Source of the DNA: Salinicola acroporae
GTDB taxonomy: Bacteria; Pseudomonadota; Gammaproteobacteria; Pseudomonadales; Halomonadaceae
Direction: 5' to 3'
Assembly: GCF_003206615.1 (NCBI RefSeq)
Contig: NZ_PZJW01000011.1
Location: forward strand, 62,001 to 126,000
DNA: 64,000 bases
Under the pieces are notes generated by a model, which was given only the letters and a program-made list of their open reading frames with translations, made no database searches and was not told where the DNA came from. A program made the position numbers and the translations under genes. Shown here in pieces: positions 1-58,634 of this stretch (position 1 is its first letter; the number at the start of each line of letters is the position of its first letter).

Positions 1-73
1 AACGTGACAACCGCCATGATTCGTTTCAACGAAAAGTTGAATTTTTAACCCGTGAGGCACGAATCTCGGCGGG

Positions 74-110
74 TGAACACACCGCCCGAGCTCACGTGAA
101 GGCGGTGTTC
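74..110. repeat. Imperfect inverted repeat upstream of the ImmA gene
   Basis: GAACACaCCGCC at 75-86 and GGCGGTGTTC at 101-110 are complementary apart from one extra base, with a 14-nt loop. The repeat lies 25 bp before the chosen start of the ImmA-like gene, so it could be an operator or a leader hairpin. No cognate regulator is visible in the window to its left. Confidence 0.4.
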
Positions 111-134
111 TGTTGGTATAGGGGAGGGTTCAGC

Positions 135-650
135 ATGACGACTGAAACCGCGATTCGGACAGCACAGAAAGCGCTCGATATAGCGTGGGATGGCAAGCTG
201 CCCATCGACCCGACTGCCATCGCACGGAGCCTGCAAGTCACCAATGGCGACTCTCGTCTTGCCATCATCATGGAAGGCGACCCTTCGCTCGGGCCCCACA
301 GCGGGCAAGCCGAGTATGTTATGGCACCCGGCGGGGACTACTATCGCTGCACGTATAACAGCCGCGAAGCATCCTATCGGCAGCAGTTCACCAAGGCTCA
401 CGAGCTCGGGCACGTGCTCATGGGTCATGTGGTACCGGGTAAAAGCCCTAAACGCGATACGACGTTCAACGCGCCCGCCGGTGATTGGGATGAGGTTGAT
501 GCCAACGCCTTCGCGGCCGAGCTGCTGATGCCCAAGGACTACGTGATCCAGATGGCGAACAAGGTCACTAACATTTCCAAATTGGCCGAGATATTTGGTG
601 TCTCGCCAACCGCCATTCGATATCGCCTGCAGAACCTTGGCTTGCTCTAA
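135..650 (+). CDS. ImmA/IrrE family metallo-endopeptidase
   Basis: A 171-residue zinc protease of the ImmA/IrrE family. Members cleave Cro/CI-type repressors to relieve repression, for example ImmA of ICEBs1 and IrrE of Deinococcus. The zinc motif HELGH lies at residues 89-93, with a downstream AAELLMP segment (about 127-133) typical of the family and likely to hold the third ligand. The ATG at 135 is chosen because GGGGAGGG precedes it; an ATG at 96 in the same frame lacks such a site. It lies 26 bp before a membrane protein gene. The partner XRE repressor usually encoded next to it is not visible to the right; the candidates are the S24 repressor at 4.7-5.4 kb or a gene beyond the window edge. 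Confidence 0.85.
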   Translation: MTTETAIRTAQKALDIAWDGKLPIDPTAIARSLQVTNGDSRLAIIMEGDPSLGPHSGQAEYVMAPGGDYYRCTYNSREASYRQQFTKAHELGHVLMGHVVPGKSPKRDTTFNAPAGDWDEVDANAFAAELLMPKDYVIQMANKVTNISKLAEIFGVSPTAIRYRLQNLGLL

Positions 651-676: not shown

Positions 677-1165
677 ATGTCTGTAGACTTTGAAGCCAGT
701 GACAGCGCGGAGCCGGGCAAGCGAGACCCGGCGGGCGACGACTCATACGATGGCGCCCCAACGCGCCAAGGCATCGACGCGGAAGTTCTCAAGCGAAGAA
801 GGGATGGGCGCCGAATGGCGCTCGTTTCCGTCATTGGCATGGGCATTTTCATTGCGATATTTTTTGGGATCGCCACGTGCTTTGCATGGCGATTTTTTCA
901 CCTCTATCTCAAGCACCTTCAACTGGTTGGTCACCGAGGTGGGCAACCAGCGCCAGGGCTGGATGGGCTATTGCCTTTCGTCGTCCCGATGATGCCCGCG
1001 TTCTTCTTCTCTCTGCTCGGATTGGTCACGCTCATCACCTGCACCCGCTTCATCACCTCCTATGTGAACTCGACGAACGACGACTCGGACGACGCCAACC
1101 TGATCGAGCGAATCGCGCGGAGCATCGCCGGTATTCTCCGGGAGCTAAAAGGCGGCGGATCCTAG
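677..1165 (+). CDS. Hypothetical inner-membrane protein
   Basis: A 162-residue protein of unrecognised family. The N-terminal 50 residues are charged and hydrophilic, followed by two hydrophobic segments (about 55-80 and 103-130), suggesting two membrane helices with a short loop. The last 30 residues are acidic then basic. It follows the ImmA-like gene by 26 bp on the same strand, so the two are probably cotranscribed. Its stop codon overlaps, tail to tail, the stop of the truncated SRAP gene on the other strand. Function unknown; a membrane component of a stress or defence pair is only a guess. Confidence 0.6.
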   Translation: MSVDFEASDSAEPGKRDPAGDDSYDGAPTRQGIDAEVLKRRRDGRRMALVSVIGMGIFIAIFFGIATCFAWRFFHLYLKHLQLVGHRGGQPAPGLDGLLPFVVPMMPAFFFSLLGLVTLITCTRFITSYVNSTNDDSDDANLIERIARSIAGILRELKGGGS

Positions 1166-1578: not shown

Positions 1579-3606
1579 TCACTGCAAATAATACTCACCT
1601 TCGGCAATGAGGGCCTTCCTATAATCGTCCAGCTCGTTAAAAAATCGTATTACGTCTTGCGTCCCTTTTTCATCATAGAAAATCTCTTTAGCCCTAACAA
1701 AAACCCCTTCGGCAATATATACATGCTCAATATGCGAAGAAAGATTTTGCATCTTCAATCTCAAACTAAACGGATTATTCAAAAGAAACATAAAATCTCC
1801 AACGCAAGGCTTGCCGCAAACCCATTGGCGATAAATAACTCTCTGCTGCGAACCCAAATGTAGCGTAATTTCGTTATCTGTAAAAAACCGCGAAACTGAA
1901 GATATATCGGTGACGTATACACCCCCAAGCTGTTTGTCAAACGATAACGGCAACCCATTGACCAAGCATGGAACAATCTTTGTTATACCATGATTGGAAC
2001 CAAAATACTTTTCCAGTATTTCAGGATGCTTTTCCAATCCTGAACAAAGCCTTTGAATTTGAATAACATGTTCTTGATAATCATCTGACATATTTCTTGA
2101 TGTGATGGGACTTCTGGGTATTGCCCTGTTTTTACATTCAAACACAAAAAGATGCGCGCCCCACTTTACAGCAAGATCAAACTGGTATTCTTCGCCTCGC
2201 CGATTTTCTTTTATCTTTTTCGGTTGAAAGCCTGATTCACTAAACAGCCTGAACAACCTATTTTCCAGTGCCTCACCTTTAGCTGATAACTTTTCTTTAT
2301 TTCTACCGACATTAGAGATGACCAATTCGTGCAAAAGGGCCTCCTTTAAGGAGGGGCCATAAAGCATATATTGATCTCCAAACTTTATTAATGGAGTGTC
2401 GTATAAATCAATGGAAGTCACCCCAAAGGTAATATTTTCTAGAAACATCTTTGCAATACCTGAAGGCAAGCCCCTTTCAACAAGTAATCTCTTGAAAAAA
2501 TCCTTGTCTTTGATAGGTAGCAGTGATAAAGCCTCTTCCTCAACATAGTTTTCTCTGATGAAATCCTGTAGCGTTGCGTAGCCCTCTAACCATTGTTCTA
2601 GGGTCAACCCTAAACACTTGTTCTTTTCATCATCTAAAGACAGAGAAAGCACCCTCTCAGTGACATACCTGCTGGAAAGTCTATTGAGGAGACCTTGATC
2701 GCCCCCCCGTTTTGTTGCTGACAGGTGCTCATAAGTAGTGAAATAAACTTCATTCGCGAGCTGACGCACTCTATGTTCCGCACTGACTTCGTAATATCTC
2801 AACACTGTTGGACTTTCAATATCTAAATGCTCTCTGACATGCTCCTTGAACTCGTCAGGCACTTTTTGATTGCTATCTGAATAATTCCATGCACGACCAC
2901 AATGCCTAATATCTTTTTGCATCGTATCAAAGGCTTTCCAGGTCATTGCATTTAAATTTAGCGCGCTTATTTTTACGACCTGATTTTCATCAGGGCTCTT
3001 AAACACTCCAAAGTCAAAAGCACTACCCCTCTTCAATTGTTCGATAAACCCTGTGCTCTTTAGCACAAGAAACACAGATCCAAAAACTACAGACATTGCA
3101 GAGTCAGGATGCACCTTATTACCTAGACTATCTTCAATTAAATGCGCTGAATTCATGTCGATAACATTCGACACAGAATTCTCTTCTAGGATGTGTCTTG
3201 CCTTCCTACCGATGGCCAAATAATCTTCCGCCGCTCTGACTAATGATGCAGAAACAAGCTCGACAGCAGTCATCTCCTTGACGGCCAGAGTATCTGCGCG
3301 CCAGTTGAAGAGGTGCAAAAAGTAGGCGTTAATTATAGGAATAATGCTAATTTTTTTGCATGCGTCAACATAGGATTCAGGATGGTTGACTTTTATCTCA
3401 TGATTTAAACCATCAATAAAAGATTTAACCCATGATGTTTTTTCAAAATCACCATCTTGCACAACTAGATTTTCATTTCGTAAAACCACGTCTACAAAAC
3501 TGTCTAAACTTAACTCCCGAAGCACCTCGCCACATAGCTTTACTGACTCCTGAAGATTTTCTGATGTCGAGATTTTTTTGAACTTTTTAAGTTTACGCTT
3601 AGTCAT
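1579..3606 (-). CDS. AT-rich cargo gene: large protein with PD-(D/E)xK nuclease-like core
   Basis: A 675-residue protein with no full-length family I recognise. Residues 440-495 look like a PD-(D/E)xK nuclease core: GEALE with E448, hydrophobic stretch, D477 in FDLAV, then E490-C-K492 in FVFECK. This fits the E...D...ExK arrangement of Mrr-like and restriction-type nucleases. The N-terminal 430 residues are mostly helical-looking and charged; the C-terminal 150 residues are mixed. ATG at 3606 follows GAGAG. Base use is strikingly AT-rich compared with all other genes in the window, a sign of recent transfer. It is flanked by two broken genes inside a mobile element's immunity region, a common place for anti-phage cargo. 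The defence role is inference; a DNA-processing role is possible. Confidence 0.7.
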   Translation of the reverse strand: MTKRKLKKFKKISTSENLQESVKLCGEVLRELSLDSFVDVVLRNENLVVQDGDFEKTSWVKSFIDGLNHEIKVNHPESYVDACKKISIIPIINAYFLHLFNWRADTLAVKEMTAVELVSASLVRAAEDYLAIGRKARHILEENSVSNVIDMNSAHLIEDSLGNKVHPDSAMSVVFGSVFLVLKSTGFIEQLKRGSAFDFGVFKSPDENQVVKISALNLNAMTWKAFDTMQKDIRHCGRAWNYSDSNQKVPDEFKEHVREHLDIESPTVLRYYEVSAEHRVRQLANEVYFTTYEHLSATKRGGDQGLLNRLSSRYVTERVLSLSLDDEKNKCLGLTLEQWLEGYATLQDFIRENYVEEEALSLLPIKDKDFFKRLLVERGLPSGIAKMFLENITFGVTSIDLYDTPLIKFGDQYMLYGPSLKEALLHELVISNVGRNKEKLSAKGEALENRLFRLFSESGFQPKKIKENRRGEEYQFDLAVKWGAHLFVFECKNRAIPRSPITSRNMSDDYQEHVIQIQRLCSGLEKHPEILEKYFGSNHGITKIVPCLVNGLPLSFDKQLGGVYVTDISSVSRFFTDNEITLHLGSQQRVIYRQWVCGKPCVGDFMFLLNNPFSLRLKMQNLSSHIEHVYIAEGVFVRAKEIFYDEKGTQDVIRFFNELDDYRKALIAEGEYYLQ

Positions 3607-3762: not shown

Positions 3763-3918
3763 TTATAAAAGCCTTCCCACCTTCCGCCATGCCTGCCTGA
3801 TGATTTCCACTTCCTCCGGCTGCACCAGCTTCCGCTCGTAGGCCGGATTGTCACTGATCAGTATCCACGTGCCGCTGGCGACGCACTGCACCCTCTTTGG
3901 TCGTACGAGAAAGCCCAT
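3763..3918 (-). pseudogene. S24-type repressor, C-terminal remnant
   Basis: Reading the minus strand from an ATG at 3918 to the TAA at 3763 gives about 51 residues. The segment KRVQCVASGTWILISDN, followed by PAYERKLV, is clearly related to the C-terminal end of the intact repressor 1 kb away (KRLQRLAGGAMLLISDN followed by SYYEKEMI). It retains the region of the catalytic Lys (KRVQ) but lacks the helix-turn-helix and the Ser half. It is best read as the tail of a former or alternative CI-like repressor broken by insertion of the AT-rich cargo, or by recombination between immunity modules. Expression as a short peptide cannot be excluded. Confidence 0.7.
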
Positions 3919-4740: not shown

Positions 4741-5406
4741 TCAAGCAATCTCCCCCATCCGCGTCCGCACGCGGCCCATCACGTGGACCTCCTGCATCCT
4801 GTCCGGGGCGATCATCTCTTTCTCGTAGTAGCTGTTGTCGCTGATTAGCAGCATCGCGCCGCCGGCCAGGCGCTGCAGACGCTTGATGCGCAGCTCGCCG
4901 CTCACCCATACCAGGAACACCCCGGCCTGGGCGAAATTGGTGTCGTTGAGGTCAATGAACACCCAGTCGTCGTCGAACAGCGTCGGCTCCATGGAGTCCC
5001 CGCGAACGCGAATGCCGGCGAGGCGGGCACCAACGAGACCCATTTGAGTCAGCGTCTCGAAGTCGATCGTGAAGGTGCCGACAACGCTTTCGTTCTCAAG
5101 CGACCGCCCAGCTCCAGCGGCGCCCTCAACATCGTAGAGAGGCACGCCAGTTCCAGCCGAAGCCCGTGACGGAGCAAAGGGGATGGCTGATGCGGACTCA
5201 CCGCCGGCGCGAATCCCAGTCAGCACGTATTGGACGTCCACCCCAACGGAAGATGCAGCCTCTAGATACTCAGCTCTAGGGCTACGCTCGCCACTTTCGT
5301 AACTTGCCTGTGCACGTTTGGACACACCACAAGCGCGCGCAAACTCCTCTTGAGAAAGAGAAATTCGCAGCCTCTCATGTTTTAGGCGCTCATGAATGTG
5401 CACCAT
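4741..5406 (-). CDS. CI-like XRE/S24 transcriptional repressor
   Basis: A 221-residue lambda CI/LexA-type repressor. The N-terminal helix-turn-helix (about residues 10-65) contains SQEEFARACGVSKRAQASYE. The C-terminal S24 domain has the serine in GDSMEPTL and the catalytic lysine in ELRIKRLQ, so RecA-stimulated autocleavage and SOS induction are expected. A TTG at 5427 is possible, but the ATG at 5406 follows AGGAAG at good spacing and is chosen. It is divergent from the early operon, with an 18-bp palindrome between the two genes. It very likely keeps the replication/excision operon silent and controls its own expression. Confidence 0.92.
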   Translation of the reverse strand: MVHIHERLKHERLRISLSQEEFARACGVSKRAQASYESGERSPRAEYLEAASSVGVDVQYVLTGIRAGGESASAIPFAPSRASAGTGVPLYDVEGAAGAGRSLENESVVGTFTIDFETLTQMGLVGARLAGIRVRGDSMEPTLFDDDWVFIDLNDTNFAQAGVFLVWVSGELRIKRLQRLAGGAMLLISDNSYYEKEMIAPDRMQEVHVMGRVRTRMGEIA

Positions 5407-5420
5407 CTTGCATTCTTCCT

Positions 5421-5449
5421 TTGACAAATGCTCGTACGAGCATTAGGTT
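5421..5449 (+). promoter_or_regulatory. Early-operon promoter with an operator palindrome in its spacer
   Basis: TTGACA at 5421-5426 is a perfect -35 box. The perfect 18-bp palindrome AATGCTCGTACGAGCATT occupies 5427-5444, nearly the whole spacer. TAGGTT at 5444-5449 is a weak -10 candidate 17 bp after the -35 box. A repressor bound to the palindrome would block RNA polymerase, as in lambda PR. The site lies between the repressor start and the first early gene. Confidence 0.7.
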
Positions 5450-6922: not shown

Positions 6923-7342
6923 ATGGCAGCCGCGACTCAGACTCTCCCCACCGAGGCAAAACGTCACCTGTCGGTCGTCCAGCCGGATGGCCGTGCCGGC
7001 TTCGGCGCCCTGCGCGCCGAGCTGCATGCCCGCTGCGCGGACAAGGATCTGGCCGAACTGTGGGCGGACATGCCGACCAACGAGCGCAAGACGGTGCTGG
7101 CCAGCGCCCAGATGCAGGCCCGAGATTCACTGCGCGGCATCGGCGAGATGAGTCGGGCCGAGCGCGATGCGATTCGCGCCGCCATCGGTCGCATGAGCCG
7201 CTACGCCCAACGCCTGGGCGAGCGGCTCAAGGGCGAGAGCCCGAATCGGGAACTGGCCGCCAACGCCCGCCGGGCCCTCGCCGAGGGTGACACCAAAGCG
7301 GCACTGCACTGGATCGCTCTGATCGAAACGGGGGCGCAATGA
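6923..7342 (+). CDS. Hypothetical helical protein preceding the replication endonuclease
   Basis: A 139-residue, strongly helical and charged protein (for example ELHARCADKDLAELWADM and RDAIRAAIGRMSRYAQRLGE). Its stop overlaps the start of the gpA-like gene by 4 bp (ATGA), so the two are translationally coupled. In P2-type phages small genes immediately before A are poorly characterised. It may be an accessory replication protein; no domain is recognised. The start at 6923 is preceded by GAGGT. Confidence 0.65.
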   Translation: MAAATQTLPTEAKRHLSVVQPDGRAGFGALRAELHARCADKDLAELWADMPTNERKTVLASAQMQARDSLRGIGEMSRAERDAIRAAIGRMSRYAQRLGERLKGESPNRELAANARRALAEGDTKAALHWIALIETGAQ

Positions 7343-9708
7343 GCGCCATCGAACGCTCCCGCCAATGGGGCACGGTCGACTGTCTGCCGTGGCGCGAGGC
7401 GATCTTCGAGCGCTTCCCCTCGCTGGCCGAGGATCTGGCCGCCGGCTTCCTGCACGTCGCCAAACGCTACGGCAACGCAGCGGGCAACCGCTGGCTGGCC
7501 CGTCAGGCGTCCGATCTGATCGAGCCGGCGCACGTCTACAAGCGCTTCCCGGTCATCGCCGACGATCTGCAGCGTGCCTTCATTGGCCGGCGCAATGCCC
7601 AGCCCACCACCATCGAGGGCATCCGCGCCGGTTGCGACTGGCTGCGCGTGGTGGAATCCCGCCTCAAGATTGGCGGCCTCAACGCCACCCACGACGATGA
7701 CGCGCTGGTCGATTACGCCCGGGCGCAGGCCCGGGCCGTCGAGGACGAACGCAACAAGCTGATCGGTGGCATCGCAGAGCACAACCGCCGCCTACGTCTC
7801 GGCCTGCTGCCGCCACCCCGGCGCGTTCGCCAGCCGCGTGGCACTTCGCTCTCTGCCCAGTCGCGGTCCATGGCGCACCAGATCGCAGCGGCGCGCAATC
7901 CGCTGACGCCACCGCCGGGCGGTATCCCGCTGATGGCGGTGTTCCGTTGGGAGCGAGCGCCGGTCATGAGTCTGGCCGTGGCAGATGAGATGGCGGCCGC
8001 CGCCGCGCGCAAGCGCGCCACACTCCACGGTATCGCGCCGCCGCCGGTGAATCAGAAAGCCAGCGTGCAACTGGCCCGGCTGAGCTGCCCTAGCTTTTGG
8101 CGCCGCAAGCTGCGCCGGCTGGCCGGGCGACGTCTCGAGCAGGTCCAGCGCGAGGCGTACCGCGTCCACGCCCAGGCCGGCATCTACTGCAGCGACATGA
8201 CCATCGAGCGCCGCCGCGCCCAGCGTGTGCGCAACCGCACGCTGCTGGAGACGCTCGAGGCGATCAATCAGGAAGGCCAGACCTACACCCTTGCCGAGCT
8301 CGCCGAACTTGGGCTGGCCAATCCGGACCATCGCCGCGCGGAGCTGATGCTGCGCATTCGCGATACCGAGGTCGAGGCCCGCCGCCTCGGTCATGTCGGC
8401 ATGTTCTACACCGTCACCGCGCCCAGCCGCTTTCACCCGGTCAACGCTAACCGCTACACGGACCGCAAGGGCCGGGAGCGCTACCGCTGCCGCCGCAATC
8501 CGAAATACGACGGATCGAACCCACGTGAAGCGCAGCAACACATCCAGAAGGTATGGGCGAAGACTCGCGCCAGGTTGGCGCGCGCCAAGCGGGCCATCTA
8601 TGGCATCCGCGTGGTGGAGCCCCACCACGACGGCACGCCGCACTGGCATCTGCTGGTGTGGATGAAGCCGGAGGACGTGGAGGCCGTCAGCCAGACCCTG
8701 CGCGATTACGCCGAGGAAGAGTCGCCGGAAGAGCTGTTCAACCGGTTCGGCAAGACCACCGCCCGCTTCGATGCCAAGCGCATCGATTACTCGAAGGGCA
8801 CGGCCGCCGGCTACGTGGCCAAGTACATCTCGAAGAACATCAACGGCGAGCAGTTCGCCCGGGCCGGCATCGATGGCGACGAGTTGGACCGCTACGGTCA
8901 CGATCTCAACAGCGCCGCCCCGCGCATCGAGGCATGGGCCGCCTGCTGGGGCATTCGCCAGTTCCAGTTCGTGGGGCTGCCCAGCGTCACCGTCTGGCGC
9001 GAGATCCGCCGCCTCACCGAGAAGCAGGAAGGCGAGCTTCGCAAGTGGGAGGAAGCCACCAACCCGCTGCCCCGCGCGGCGGCCACCTTCCACCGCATCC
9101 GCGAAGCCGCCAACGCCGGCCAGTGGGACCGGTTCCTCCGCCTGATGGGCGGCCCCAATACGCCGCGCAAGCTGCAGCCGATCAAGCCGTGGTCGATCCC
9201 CGCCTTCCGCACCGGCAAGGGCGACGACGACTTCAGCCACGCCACCGGCGAGCAGCATCGGGAGTTCATAGAGCGCGGCCGCTACGGCGACGAGATCAAG
9301 GTGCCGAAGGGCCTCGCCGTCAGCGATGGCAAGGGCCGCGTTTCCGAGTACCTGACGCGCCTCTATCGCTGGAACGTGCGCCCGAAGCGTGCCGCCGCGT
9401 CGGGGTTTTTGGGAGGCGGCGAAGCCGCCGACCCTTGGACTTGTGTCACTAACTGTACGGACCCCGGCACGGGGGCCGGCCAAAGCCTCATCCCTCGGAG
9501 CCTGCTGACTCCGAAAGAACTCACCCCGGAGGAGTTGGAGGCCCAACTCCAACGCTATCGAGAGTGGCGCGCCAGCGAACACGTCCGCCAAGAGATGGAA
9601 GACGCCGACCTCGAGCACCGAATGATCCAGGCCGCCGTCCGGCGGCACAAAAACTACGCCCCGCCGGTGAGGCAGGGCACCCCCGAATATTTCCCGGAAG
9701 GGATCTGA
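7339..9708 (+). CDS. P2 gpA-like rolling-circle replication endonuclease
   Basis: A 789-residue replication initiator related to phage P2 gpA (about 760 residues), which nicks the origin and stays covalently bound to the 5' end during rolling-circle replication. The HUH metal motif is in TPHWHLLVW (His435 and His437), preceded by the family segment VEPHHDG. The catalytic pair is Tyr492 and Tyr496 in GYVAKYISKNI, the Y-x3-Y arrangement of gpA and phiX174 A. About 300 N-terminal residues are less conserved. Start overlaps the previous gene by 4 bp. P2 gpA nicks within its own gene, so the origin may be internal; I could not locate it. All catalytic residues are present, so it looks functional. 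Confidence 0.92.
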   Translation: MSAIERSRQWGTVDCLPWREAIFERFPSLAEDLAAGFLHVAKRYGNAAGNRWLARQASDLIEPAHVYKRFPVIADDLQRAFIGRRNAQPTTIEGIRAGCDWLRVVESRLKIGGLNATHDDDALVDYARAQARAVEDERNKLIGGIAEHNRRLRLGLLPPPRRVRQPRGTSLSAQSRSMAHQIAAARNPLTPPPGGIPLMAVFRWERAPVMSLAVADEMAAAAARKRATLHGIAPPPVNQKASVQLARLSCPSFWRRKLRRLAGRRLEQVQREAYRVHAQAGIYCSDMTIERRRAQRVRNRTLLETLEAINQEGQTYTLAELAELGLANPDHRRAELMLRIRDTEVEARRLGHVGMFYTVTAPSRFHPVNANRYTDRKGRERYRCRRNPKYDGSNPREAQQHIQKVWAKTRARLARAKRAIYGIRVVEPHHDGTPHWHLLVWMKPEDVEAVSQTLRDYAEEESPEELFNRFGKTTARFDAKRIDYSKGTAAGYVAKYISKNINGEQFARAGIDGDELDRYGHDLNSAAPRIEAWAACWGIRQFQFVGLPSVTVWREIRRLTEKQEGELRKWEEATNPLPRAAATFHRIREAANAGQWDRFLRLMGGPNTPRKLQPIKPWSIPAFRTGKGDDDFSHATGEQHREFIERGRYGDEIKVPKGLAVSDGKGRVSEYLTRLYRWNVRPKRAAASGFLGGGEAADPWTCVTNCTDPGTGAGQSLIPRSLLTPKELTPEELEAQLQRYREWRASEHVRQEMEDADLEHRMIQAAVRRHKNYAPPVRQGTPEYFPEGI

Positions 9709-10660: not shown

Positions 10661-10968
10661 GAGCCACACAGCCTAACCCTGATCAGGCAATCGCCGACGC
10701 GCTGGCGCGCGTCAAAGCGGGCGTGGATCCGTCGATGATCGAGCTGCCCGACATCGTGGTGTTCCCGCGGCTGATCCCGGCCATGCCGGCGACGGCGAGA
10801 AAGGCGCGTGGTACCGGTACGCTGCTGGGCCGCCCCGGGCCGCGCTTCGTGAAGCGAGGCCACCAGGTCCGCTATCGTCTGTCGGACGTGTATGAGTGGC
10901 TGGAGTCGAGCGAGAGCTACGCCAGCACGGCAGAAGCGGCAATGCACCGTGCTGCCACTGCCTCATGA
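10657..10968 (+). CDS. AlpA-like DNA-binding protein / putative excisionase
   Basis: A 103-residue protein. ATG at 10657 overlaps the previous stop and follows AAGGAGG. The segment GRPGPRFVKRGHQVRYRLSDVYEWL (residues 54-78, key features GPRF-K-G, YR and DVYEWL) is the winged-helix pattern of AlpA/Xis-type proteins. Such proteins direct excision or activate integrase. It is the last gene of the rightward operon and its 3' end overlaps the convergent integrase stop by about 6 bp. It probably provides the excision function when the repressor is inactivated. Confidence 0.75.
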   Translation: MRATQPNPDQAIADALARVKAGVDPSMIELPDIVVFPRLIPAMPATARKARGTGTLLGRPGPRFVKRGHQVRYRLSDVYEWLESSESYASTAEAAMHRAATAS

Positions 10969-12306
10969 CTGCGGAGAACCATCCTTGCCACGCCCGATCT
11001 GAGCGAAGAGCTGCACCGCTTGACGCTTGTGATCGGGCTGGAGGTGAGCGTAATACTTGATGGTGGTCTGGATATCGGAATGCGCCATCAGCTTGCTCAC
11101 CGTCAGCAGATCAACGCCAGCCATCACCAACTGACTCGCGAAGTTGTGGCGCAACGTGTAGAGCGCCAGGTCTTCATGCAGCCGGCCCAGCTTTCGAACG
11201 TTCCTCCACGGGCCGCGCATGCCACTCTTGCCCAGTCGCTTCCCCGATGTCGGCGACGGGAACACATAGCCGCTCCGTGGCTTCCCCTGCTGCTCCCACC
11301 ACGCTTTCAACACGGCCAGCACGTCATCCGATAACGGGAACGTCTGCGGCTCCGGTGTCTGGTGCGCCGTCTTCTCGATGATCTTGCGAATCGTCCCGAA
11401 CTCGAAATTGATGTGCGGCCACCGTAGCCCCATCAGATCCCCAGGGCGAAAGCCGGTGTAATACATGGTGAGCAACCAGGGGGAGACGTGATCGACGTAG
11501 GCGACGCCGTCGAGATCCGGCAGGTAGCCTTTGCCGTGGGCTCGGCTGTTGCGGCGCCGACGACGCTTCTCTCCCTGATACGCTTCCAAGCCTGCGAAGA
11601 ACCGACCAACTTCGTCGGGCTCCAGGTAGCGCCGGGCTTCGTCCTCCTCGAGATCCTCCTCCGTGAGCGCTGGCTTCTGGAGGCGAACGCCGCTGATCGG
11701 GTTGGCGGGGATCACTCCACGGTGAGCGGCGTGATTCAGCAGCGTCTGCAACGCCCCGTAGGATCGGGAAAGCGTCGAATAAGCGAGACCCCGGACGGGT
11801 GGCTCGGCATTCAGGTCGCTTGTCTCCATCTTCGCTTGCCAGCGCTCGACATCGCCGCGGTCGAGCCCATCCATCGGACGGTTGAGCCAGTCGGGAAAGT
11901 CACGCTCGATCCGCCTGAGCGTGGCGTCGCCATCCTTGCGACGTCGCTGGTGATCGGCGTAATCGCCCCGCAGGTAGACGCCCAGCGTCTGCTGCTGTCG
12001 GTAAACCGCCTGGGCTTTCGCCTCCTCCAACACCGCCCGGGGGTCGCCACCACGTGCCACGATCCCAAGCGTCTCGCGGGCGGACTCACGTGCCTGGGCG
12101 GCGGTCAGCTCCCCATACCTGCCGAGCGTCAGAACCCGCCGCGTGTTTCCCGTGTTGTAGTAGGAGACACGCAACGCCAGGCCTCGCTGCCCAGCGCGCA
12201 CGTGATAGCCTCCCAGCTCGCTATCCCACACCTCATCGCCGTTCGGCAGCTCGCGCGTGAGGCGATCGAGCGCCCGCGTAGTCAGCTTTTCGGTGGTTTT
12301 ACCCAT
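10963..12306 (-). CDS. int: Tyrosine recombinase (integrase)
   Basis: A 447-residue phage-type tyrosine integrase. The catalytic pattern is R287 in TGFRPGD, R386/H387 in LRHNFAS, H409 in AHSD, and the nucleophile Y419 in KYYAH. The usual His two residues before the second Arg is replaced by Thr/Tyr, as in many P4-group integrases. The N-terminal part (1-95) is an arm-binding domain of the DUF4102-like type, followed by a core-binding SAM-like domain (about 105-205). ATG at 12306 is chosen although its ribosome-binding site is weak; an upstream in-frame start at 12369 is possible. It lies about 155 bp from the tRNA-Pro fragment and converges with the AlpA-like gene. Confidence 0.92.
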   Translation of the reverse strand: MGKTTEKLTTRALDRLTRELPNGDEVWDSELGGYHVRAGQRGLALRVSYYNTGNTRRVLTLGRYGELTAAQARESARETLGIVARGGDPRAVLEEAKAQAVYRQQQTLGVYLRGDYADHQRRRKDGDATLRRIERDFPDWLNRPMDGLDRGDVERWQAKMETSDLNAEPPVRGLAYSTLSRSYGALQTLLNHAAHRGVIPANPISGVRLQKPALTEEDLEEDEARRYLEPDEVGRFFAGLEAYQGEKRRRRRNSRAHGKGYLPDLDGVAYVDHVSPWLLTMYYTGFRPGDLMGLRWPHINFEFGTIRKIIEKTAHQTPEPQTFPLSDDVLAVLKAWWEQQGKPRSGYVFPSPTSGKRLGKSGMRGPWRNVRKLGRLHEDLALYTLRHNFASQLVMAGVDLLTVSKLMAHSDIQTTIKYYAHLQPDHKRQAVQLFAQIGRGKDGSPQS

Positions 12307-12423
12307 GGCCGTTTCTAGGTTCCATATAGGTTCTGAAAGGAGGATAAAACCGGATAAGTTCGGCAACAACCGGAAAAGACAGCATGCGCGTAACGCGTTG
12401 ATTTAAATTGTATAGAGTTTTCC

Positions 12424-58224: not shown

Positions 58225-58634
58225 ATCACCGTCCGTTTCACAAAGGTGGTGGAGATGGGCATTTTCTGGGCCGCCAGAGAGAAGGCTTCACGCGCCAGCT
58301 CTTCGGAAACACCCTCGATTTCGTAGAGCACCTTGCCCGGCTGAATCTGGGCCACCCAGTACTCGACGGAACCCTTACCTTTACCCATACGAACCTCGAG
58401 AGGCTTGTTGGTAATCGGCTTGTCCGGGAATACGCGGATCCAGATCTTGCCACCACGCTTGACGTGACGGGTGATTGCACGACGACCCGCTTCGATCTGA
58501 CGTGCGGTGATACGACCGCGATCGGTGGCCTTGAGACCGAAGTCCCCGAAGCTCACCTTGCTGCCGCGATGTGCCAGGCCGCGGTTACGACCTTTCTGCA
58601 CCTTGCGGAACTTTGTACGCTTGGGTTGCAACAT
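58221..58634 (-). CDS. rplP: 50S ribosomal protein L16
   Basis: A 137-residue L16 (E. coli 136). [19 protein letters not shown] begins it, and [20 protein letters not shown] lies near residue 70-90. It sits close to the A-site tRNA. It starts 14 bp after rpsC. Confidence 0.97.

Follow-up and report, generated by a model that had tools for sequence, protein, structure and literature searches.

Upx consists of a single protein, as does the product of the 675-codon gene described here, and it is said to belong to the set of systems in Gao et al. 2020. Can2, Cdn1 and Card1 are signal-activated, non-specific nucleases, and SduA of the Shedu system is a single-protein defence nuclease. One phage paper puts Upx under nucleic acid degradation (PMC10855318), and two others mention it (PMC13367071; PMC12629846). 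Among the literature matches listed, from a collection in which subscription journals are mostly outside, there was no short Upx-like family and no paper on the Upx structure 9wuf.

The window, i.e., the whole stretch of 64,000 nucleotides of Salinicola acroporae analysed in this study, contains close to its start an open reading frame that runs through 675 codons from ATG to stop without interruption (Table 1). We consider it likely that its product is an anti-phage (or anti-mobile-element) nuclease, a compact single-protein prophage cargo with kinship to the Upx C-terminal half. This reading is based on three observations: the gene is intact and looks foreign in a slot used for cargo, the nuclease active site is conserved, and the predicted fold is shared with a known defence protein. 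The GC content of the gene is 0.398 and its GC3 is 0.388, and the corresponding values in the seven other window genes compared are 0.549–0.680 and 0.667–0.852 (GC of the whole window, 0.625). The first-pass annotation, which had described an AT-rich frame of 675 residues with base use unlike its surroundings, was therefore correct on both points.

From its gene content (in the window, integrase, gpA-type initiator and S24 repressor), the prophage around the gene is judged to be P2-related. To the left of the window on the same contig, nine proteins of this prophage were compared with PHROGs, which recognised a terminase, a scaffold/protease, the major head protein, baseplate proteins, a connector and, of the tail, the sheath, the tape measure and a tail protein. 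The gene had been placed beside the repressor of a mobile element: an S24/HTH repressor is indeed nearby, but it is not directly adjacent, with a pair of small genes and some 1.1 kb in between. Upstream of the gene, a 42-codon remnant aligns with residues 184–227 of the intact repressor (32% identity over 44 columns, E = 2e-7), and it suggests that the gene may have come in by recombination. Two further observations concern this region. The M78 metallopeptidase matches PADLOC capP at 4.9e-19. At contig positions 58260–61327, in the stretch separating the late tail genes from the start of the window, there are a type II restriction enzyme (PADLOC), which we take to be Eco29kI-like, a cytosine methylase and Vsr, together with a membrane-type protein of 265 aa; the restriction-modification set with Vsr lies 0.7–2.9 kb to the left of the window.

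Table 1. Features of the window around the gene of the 675-aa protein (P0001); residue numbers refer to this protein.
Feature	Position	Strand	Basis
M78 (ImmA/IrrE-type) metallopeptidase, convergent with the 675-codon gene and in the same variable region	3..650	+	
Small membrane-type protein, 162 aa, adjoining the M78 gene	677..1165	+	by eye
Gene of the 675-aa Upx-like PD-(D/E)XK protein (P0001)	1579..3606	-	ORF, alignment, predicted structure
Codons of the C-terminal residues 577-675, with helices and strands in the model and confidence falling toward the end	1582..1878	-	model
Codons of residues 443-576: predicted PD-(D/E)XK nuclease core	1879..2280	-	model, 16-row alignment
Codons of residues 88-442: mostly helical; residues 88-423 paired by VIA-align with Upx 765-1087	2281..3345	-	model, alignment
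Remnant like the C-terminus of an S24-type repressor, upstream of the 675-codon gene	3763..3891	-	frame by eye
Small exported-looking protein, 112 aa	3940..4278	-	by eye
Small membrane-type protein, 128 aa	4288..4674	-	by eye
Prophage S24/HTH repressor	4741..5427	-	Pfam, PHROGs
gpA-type replication initiator (Phage_GPA)	7339..9708	+	
Prophage integrase (tyrosine recombinase)	10963..12369	-	

The residues E448, D477, E490 and K492, from which a nuclease core had been proposed, stand in the protein as claimed. Their spacing, written as E-x(24-33)-D-x(8-16)-[DE]xK, occurs at four places in the real protein and in 1,586 of the 2,000 shuffled versions of the same protein; since it is expected by chance, the spacing by itself is no evidence, and we rejected it as proof of a nuclease. 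The motif is significant because the four residues are invariant in all 16 rows of an alignment of the 675-aa protein with 15 relatives, called group A here, which are 13–23% identical to it and include some near-duplicate pairs. A second set of relatives (group B), the split relative L022, near-duplicate loci and the weak matches L029–L031 lie outside this alignment. The group A alignment thus carries the catalytic residues of PD-(D/E)XK enzymes (the alphaA Glu, the Asp and the ExK). In the core (residues 443–576), the invariant positions are G444, E448, D477, E490, K492, Q516, R519 and D567, and in the helical region (88–442) they are R279, W339, G379, D400, D403, P405 and S431. In a 13-row alignment that included four group B proteins, the invariant positions were D400, P405, D477, F487, E490, C491, K492, N493, Q516 and D604; the E448 column is not conserved in group B and is not invariant in this alignment.

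These results bear on whether the gene might be an inactive or decaying piece of cargo without present function, which we regard as very improbable: the only other identical copy found (L002) is probably the same provirus and a Halomonas relative is split into two frames, as decay would allow, but the frame here is open over 675 codons, its catalytic set is intact and the catalytic residues are conserved throughout the family.

Searches with the 675-aa protein returned no Pfam or NCBIfam family at E ≤ 1, so the idea of plain homology to a named family was dropped, and for these two collections the description "otherwise unrecognised" was upheld. PADLOC and the PHROGs gave one weak match each, namely CARF4--CARF_PDDEXK as the only PADLOC model at E ≤ 1 (E = 0.003, residues 426–496) and PHROG 29467 (E = 0.0059). 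A sequence search of the PDB found no match at E ≤ 10. When a family profile was compared with PDB chains, alignment A11 matched AF1548 (E = 0.0015) and Can2 (E = 0.15); profiles A3, A7 and A8 gave comparable weak matches (for A7, AF1548 only), profile A9 gave no match of interest, and Upx was absent from all sequence and profile searches of PDB chains. Pfam NERD matched nine of the 13 members of the 13-row alignment at E ≤ 0.1 (best, 3.7e-4), and the PADLOC viperin-associated NERD model matched three of the 13 (best, 6.3e-9). NERD (PF08378) did not match the 675-aa protein itself at E ≤ 1, and three relatives compared singly with it scored 16.6–18.9 bits, below the gathering cut-off of 22.1. 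Mrr_cat matched weakly in two relatives. Taken together, the profiles give a weak indication of nuclease families (AF1548, Can2 and NERD).

The AlphaFold2 model of the protein, built from 15 sequences, had a pLDDT of 78.4 and a pTM of 0.75. The predicted elements (H445–457, E463–469, E472–482, E485–492, H500–526 and E543–550) form, over residues 445–550 of the model, the alpha-beta-beta-beta-alpha-beta core of PD-(D/E)XK enzymes, and in the fold searches this core was found at about residues 443–576, where the first-pass annotation had expected a nuclease. In Foldseek against the PDB, the sole match of the full model with E ≤ 0.001 was Upx 9wuf (E = 5.9e-6, 641 columns), with low TM-scores of 0.29 and 0.19. 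VIA-align paired residues 85–571 of the full model with 759–1269 of Upx (Z = 11.5, rmsd 6.8, 373 residues). The next matches of the nuclease region were Cdn1 (9.6), AF1548 (9.2), Can2 (8.4), VC1899 (8.3), McrC (7.7) and SduA (7.2), and those to Cdn1, AF1548, Can2 and VC1899 (Z = 8.3–9.6) extended over 109–114 residues of the nuclease core. The same list also holds FokI, McrC and R2-type nuclease domains, Card1 and resolvases such as Hjc. A search of the BFVD with the model gave no match at E ≤ 0.001.

To learn whether the likeness to Upx exceeds the nuclease, residues 1–425 were folded alone. The resulting model (eight sequences) was of middling confidence (pLDDT 65.4, pTM 0.66). VIA-align, in which helical models may reach a Z of 13 without meaning, placed Upx first (Z = 11.9, rmsd 4.9, 255 residues, 88–423 to 765–1087; next match, 7.2), and in Foldseek alone Upx ranked sixth (E = 1.1). 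After this result the notion of an N-terminal half without a known fold was set aside: the approximately 430 N-terminal residues, reported initially as having no recognised domain, are not without relatives, and their predicted fold is most like that of Upx.

Sequence profiles gave a third placement on Upx. Of 398 genomes searched in the phylum, two were matched by the PADLOC model of Upx (PDLC02221, 1,271 positions) at E ≤ 0.01; the model had no match in the window's genome at E ≤ 0.001, and Upx models did not match the 675-aa protein in PADLOC at E ≤ 1. The profile comparison used a set of five Upx proteins (L041–L045), one of which (L044) is shorter, with a frame of 787 aa. With hhalign, residues 332–558 were aligned with Upx 976–1250 (score 69.9, E = 3.8e-7, probability 92.9), and the best score in 60 column shuffles was 23.6. 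When only two Upx sequences were used, the score fell to 50.7 (best of 60 shuffles, 24.6; reversed, 14.8); against the N-terminal half of Upx it was 24.8, which is about the shuffle maximum of 24.6, and the pairwise tool gave an E-value of 8.1e-5 and a probability of 61. The hhalign placement and the two VIA-align placements follow one common order along both proteins. The other PD-(D/E)XK proteins compared as single sequences scored 54.7 (L031), 50.0 (L029) and 44.2 (the Can2-like L030), single Upx proteins scored 24.6–41.3, and ZorD, Avs2, Vsr and HsdR scored 13–19. By sequence, Upx does not stand out, because other PD-(D/E)XK proteins score as high or higher; it indicates kinship with a wider nuclease group, and it is the match of the predicted fold that singles out Upx. 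On these models, the 675-aa protein is a relative of the Upx C-terminal half and probably works like it.

We also analyzed the distribution of the relatives, which are sparse and are spread over prophages, plasmids and chromosomes. The profile search of the phylum found seven of 398 genomes, including the window's own, and three of the seven matches were weak and lay within positions 358–525; the protein search of the class found one of 369 genomes, the window's own. Eight of 72,556 plasmid records, from Proteobacteria and Firmicutes, contained relatives, none of which spanned 80% of the query. Further relatives were found on viral contigs and at nine loci of a genome-contig collection, a lower bound because the collection was scanned with a single pattern that is bound to miss many relatives. 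There were no matches to the 675-aa protein in 50,697 phage records, and the DNA of a Klebsiella relative had no match in the E. coli genomes searched. One genome (G645) contains both a group A protein (L027) and a full-length Upx (L041), on different contigs.

In the first PADLOC survey of the neighbourhoods, 20 neighbour proteins were chosen by eye as promising, and loci L026–L031, with 3–4 kb of sequence each, were outside it. Near group A genes, this eye-picked set included ZorB/C/D of Zorya type I (L018), PDC-S20 (L017), Hp1/Hp2 (L021), Avs2 (L022) and PDC-M48B with E1-E2/JAB (L019), as well as the restriction-modification genes with Vsr in the window's own prophage; near group B genes it included PtuA/PtuB (L012) and, at L013, a subunit of type I restriction. 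For an unselected test, all mechanical non-overlapping ORFs of ≥ 120 aa were taken at seven of the nine genome-contig loci (six of group A and one of group B, L023), with the gene itself excluded, and one 16-kb region of each of the same seven contigs, picked by distance, served as the control; the contigs of L021 and L024 were too short for a control region. At E ≤ 1e-20, 38 PADLOC families were matched among the 73 neighbour proteins and two among the 86 control proteins, and the families are not independent, since several models match one protein and each family listed (25 of the 38) has one member. Those listed include Avs2, ZorB/C/D, DpdE-type helicase models, PDC-S20, PDC-M48B and "Hydrolase." The control families were SspA and DndA, with one member each, which resemble housekeeping cysteine desulfurases. 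These figures favour a defence setting, and at most of the loci closely examined the relatives are on mobile elements or near defence genes, as would be expected if the gene is defence cargo. By eye, no known defence system was recognised at loci L016, L020, L024, L037 and L038, and the annotation of seven plasmid regions (of the eight matches) names none; toxin-antitoxin genes and one HEPN protein occur in neighbourhoods without a named defence system. Near Avs2, the Halomonas relative is broken into two overlapping frames (L022:6949-9074).

By eye and in the annotation, the relatives have no regular companion gene, methylase or other, which argues against classical restriction. Pairing of the gene with a restriction-modification system had been considered because of the Eco29kI-like set nearby, and it was set aside for the same reason. 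A nuclease of a restriction or modification-sensing type, reading phage DNA directly by its sequence or base modification, is unlikely in our judgement. It would fit the FokI, McrC and R2-type nuclease domains in the VIA-align list, the weak Mrr_cat matches in two relatives and the presence of the Eco29kI-like set with Vsr in the same prophage, but a DNA-recognition domain was not found in the protein, and its relatives are not regularly paired with a methylase.

The gene occupies the repressor side of the prophage, and we compared this position with that in related prophages. At E ≤ 1e-50, the gpA of this prophage group was found in 30 of 121 genomes in the family, including the window's own. 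For the eight best-scoring other copies, mechanical ORFs were compared over the stretch that begins with the tail gene and ends with gpA. In six of these eight prophages, the next substantial gene or genes past the repressor are AT-rich (GC 0.37–0.45) and on the same strand as the 675-codon gene, so that such genes occupy the slot in seven of the nine prophages compared, including that of the window. They differ in kind between most copies: there are two in L056, three in L057, one in L058 (by eye, it starts like one of those in L057), two in L059 (one of YejK type, E = 2e-18, L059:6380-7480, and a neighbour of 409 aa), a match to an OLD-family endonuclease in L061, and in L062, about 1.3 kb from the repressor, a KAP-type NTPase that shares 32% identity with the protein of L017 that matched PDC-S20. 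In L055 the AT-rich genes are farther off, and in L060 there are none. The slot is not the sole variable place, because L056 and L061 have AT-rich genes elsewhere in the region. The 675-codon gene itself was absent from the slot in all eight related prophages, which hold other cargo or are empty there. Variable genes of foreign composition thus occur at one position, with known defence types among them (OLD and KAP), as in a prophage defence hotspot, and the suggestion that the gene sits in such a hotspot of a mobile element is supported. The slot is of the kind treated by Rousset et al., at a different junction, and is worth searching for more defence genes. Unrecognised AT-rich slot proteins of about 295 aa in L056 (12268-13161, minus strand), L057 (11558-12442) and L058 (11906-12796; the last two in reversed numbering), of which those of L057 and L058 start alike by eye, are candidates for another defence family. 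L057:7719-8651 encodes an AT-rich slot protein of 310 aa that had no PDB sequence match at E ≤ 0.01.

The variability of the slot also bears on the possibility that the gene serves the life cycle of the prophage itself, as a phage fitness or replication/recombination gene. Relatives do lie inside phage genomes, in L010 with tail genes (by eye) on one side and the tail sheath on the other, and with structural or lysis genes on either side in L037 and L038 (by eye); resolvases such as Hjc also have PD-(D/E)XK folds. Relatives are also found, however, on plasmids of Proteobacteria and Firmicutes and at chromosomal loci near Avs2 and Zorya, and eight related prophages have other cargo or none at the slot, so that we regard a role in the prophage's own cycle as improbable. 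L010 contains a second gene between tail genes whose strand is opposite to that of its phage neighbours (L010:1512-2708, minus strand, 398 aa); it had no PADLOC match at 1e-5.

If the product is an anti-phage nuclease, as we prefer, it would be made in the lysogen, where its helical N-terminal part of about 330 residues, with the segment containing W339, D400, D403 and P405, would keep the nuclease inactive. The same helical part may sense an invading phage or a disturbance caused by it, and the freed nuclease would then cut nucleic acid, most likely DNA, so that a second phage would be stopped either by destruction of its DNA or by death of the cell. The protein may instead be an abortive-infection toxin, a triggered nuclease that cuts host DNA or RNA indiscriminately so that the cell dies. 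This possibility, which is plausible if not quite what we would expect, overlaps with the preferred explanation because it describes the same effector acting suicidally. It is consistent with the single-gene architecture, in which by eye no methylase or immunity partner regularly adjoins, and with the presence of the signal-activated, non-specific nucleases Can2, Cdn1 and Card1 among the nearest nuclease folds; against it, no CARF domain was recognised outside the nuclease core by Pfam or PADLOC. If the anti-phage nuclease reading is right, the family is a single-gene defence that is compact and simple to clone, and that goes unrecognised by the PADLOC models applied in this study.

Compared with known systems, the likeness to NERD, AF1548, VC1899, Can2 and Cdn1 lies in the PD-(D/E)XK nuclease core of the predicted model, but the 675-aa protein differs from NERD and Can2-type proteins in having no NERD match and no recognised CARF or other accessory domain. 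The match to SduA covers residues 442–576 of the model (Z = 7.2), and the SduA model was not among the PADLOC matches at E ≤ 1, in contrast to what is expected of a Shedu protein. Group B proteins are about 715 aa in length and occur in Rhizorhabdus, Sphingobium, Shewanella, Massilia and viral contigs (L008, L009, L012, L013, L023, L024, L037 and L038). They share the C-terminal part with the 675-aa protein (281 columns, hhalign E = 1e-17), with D477, E490, K492, N493 and Q516 in common, but the N-terminal half was not aligned by hhalign and the residue at E448 is not kept. On two sphingomonad plasmids, the group B gene is near a gene for an error-prone DNA polymerase.

The closest comparison is with Upx. 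The helical region, a PL-type segment preceding the nuclease and the PD-(D/E)XK core follow in the same order in both, so that in the predicted models the protein has the fold of the Upx C-terminal half; among the positions that do not vary across five Upx proteins are D1049, P1065, D1161, E1176 and K1178. It differs from Upx, which has about 1,270 residues, in its length of 675 residues, in the absence of the Upx N-terminal half (about 760 residues) and in its low identity (17% in the hhalign alignment). We do not file the protein as Upx, because it neither matches the Upx model (PDLC02221) nor has the length of Upx. The first-pass annotation had proposed an undescribed single-gene defence system; computational checks of the kinds that it suggested favour this proposal, and "undescribed" should be taken to mean a short family related to Upx, because the predicted fold of the N-terminal region is most like that of Upx. 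We lean slightly toward the view that the relatives form an unnamed family of "mini-Upx" immune nucleases, in which the C-terminal half of Upx is free-standing as a single-gene defence of prophages and plasmids, and in which group B carries another N-terminal half. If this is so, Upx would have gained its additional 760 residues as a separate module, and infection would be sensed in the shared helical region. Such a natural short form would show which half of Upx may suffice for immunity, and it would therefore make the mechanism of Upx directly testable.
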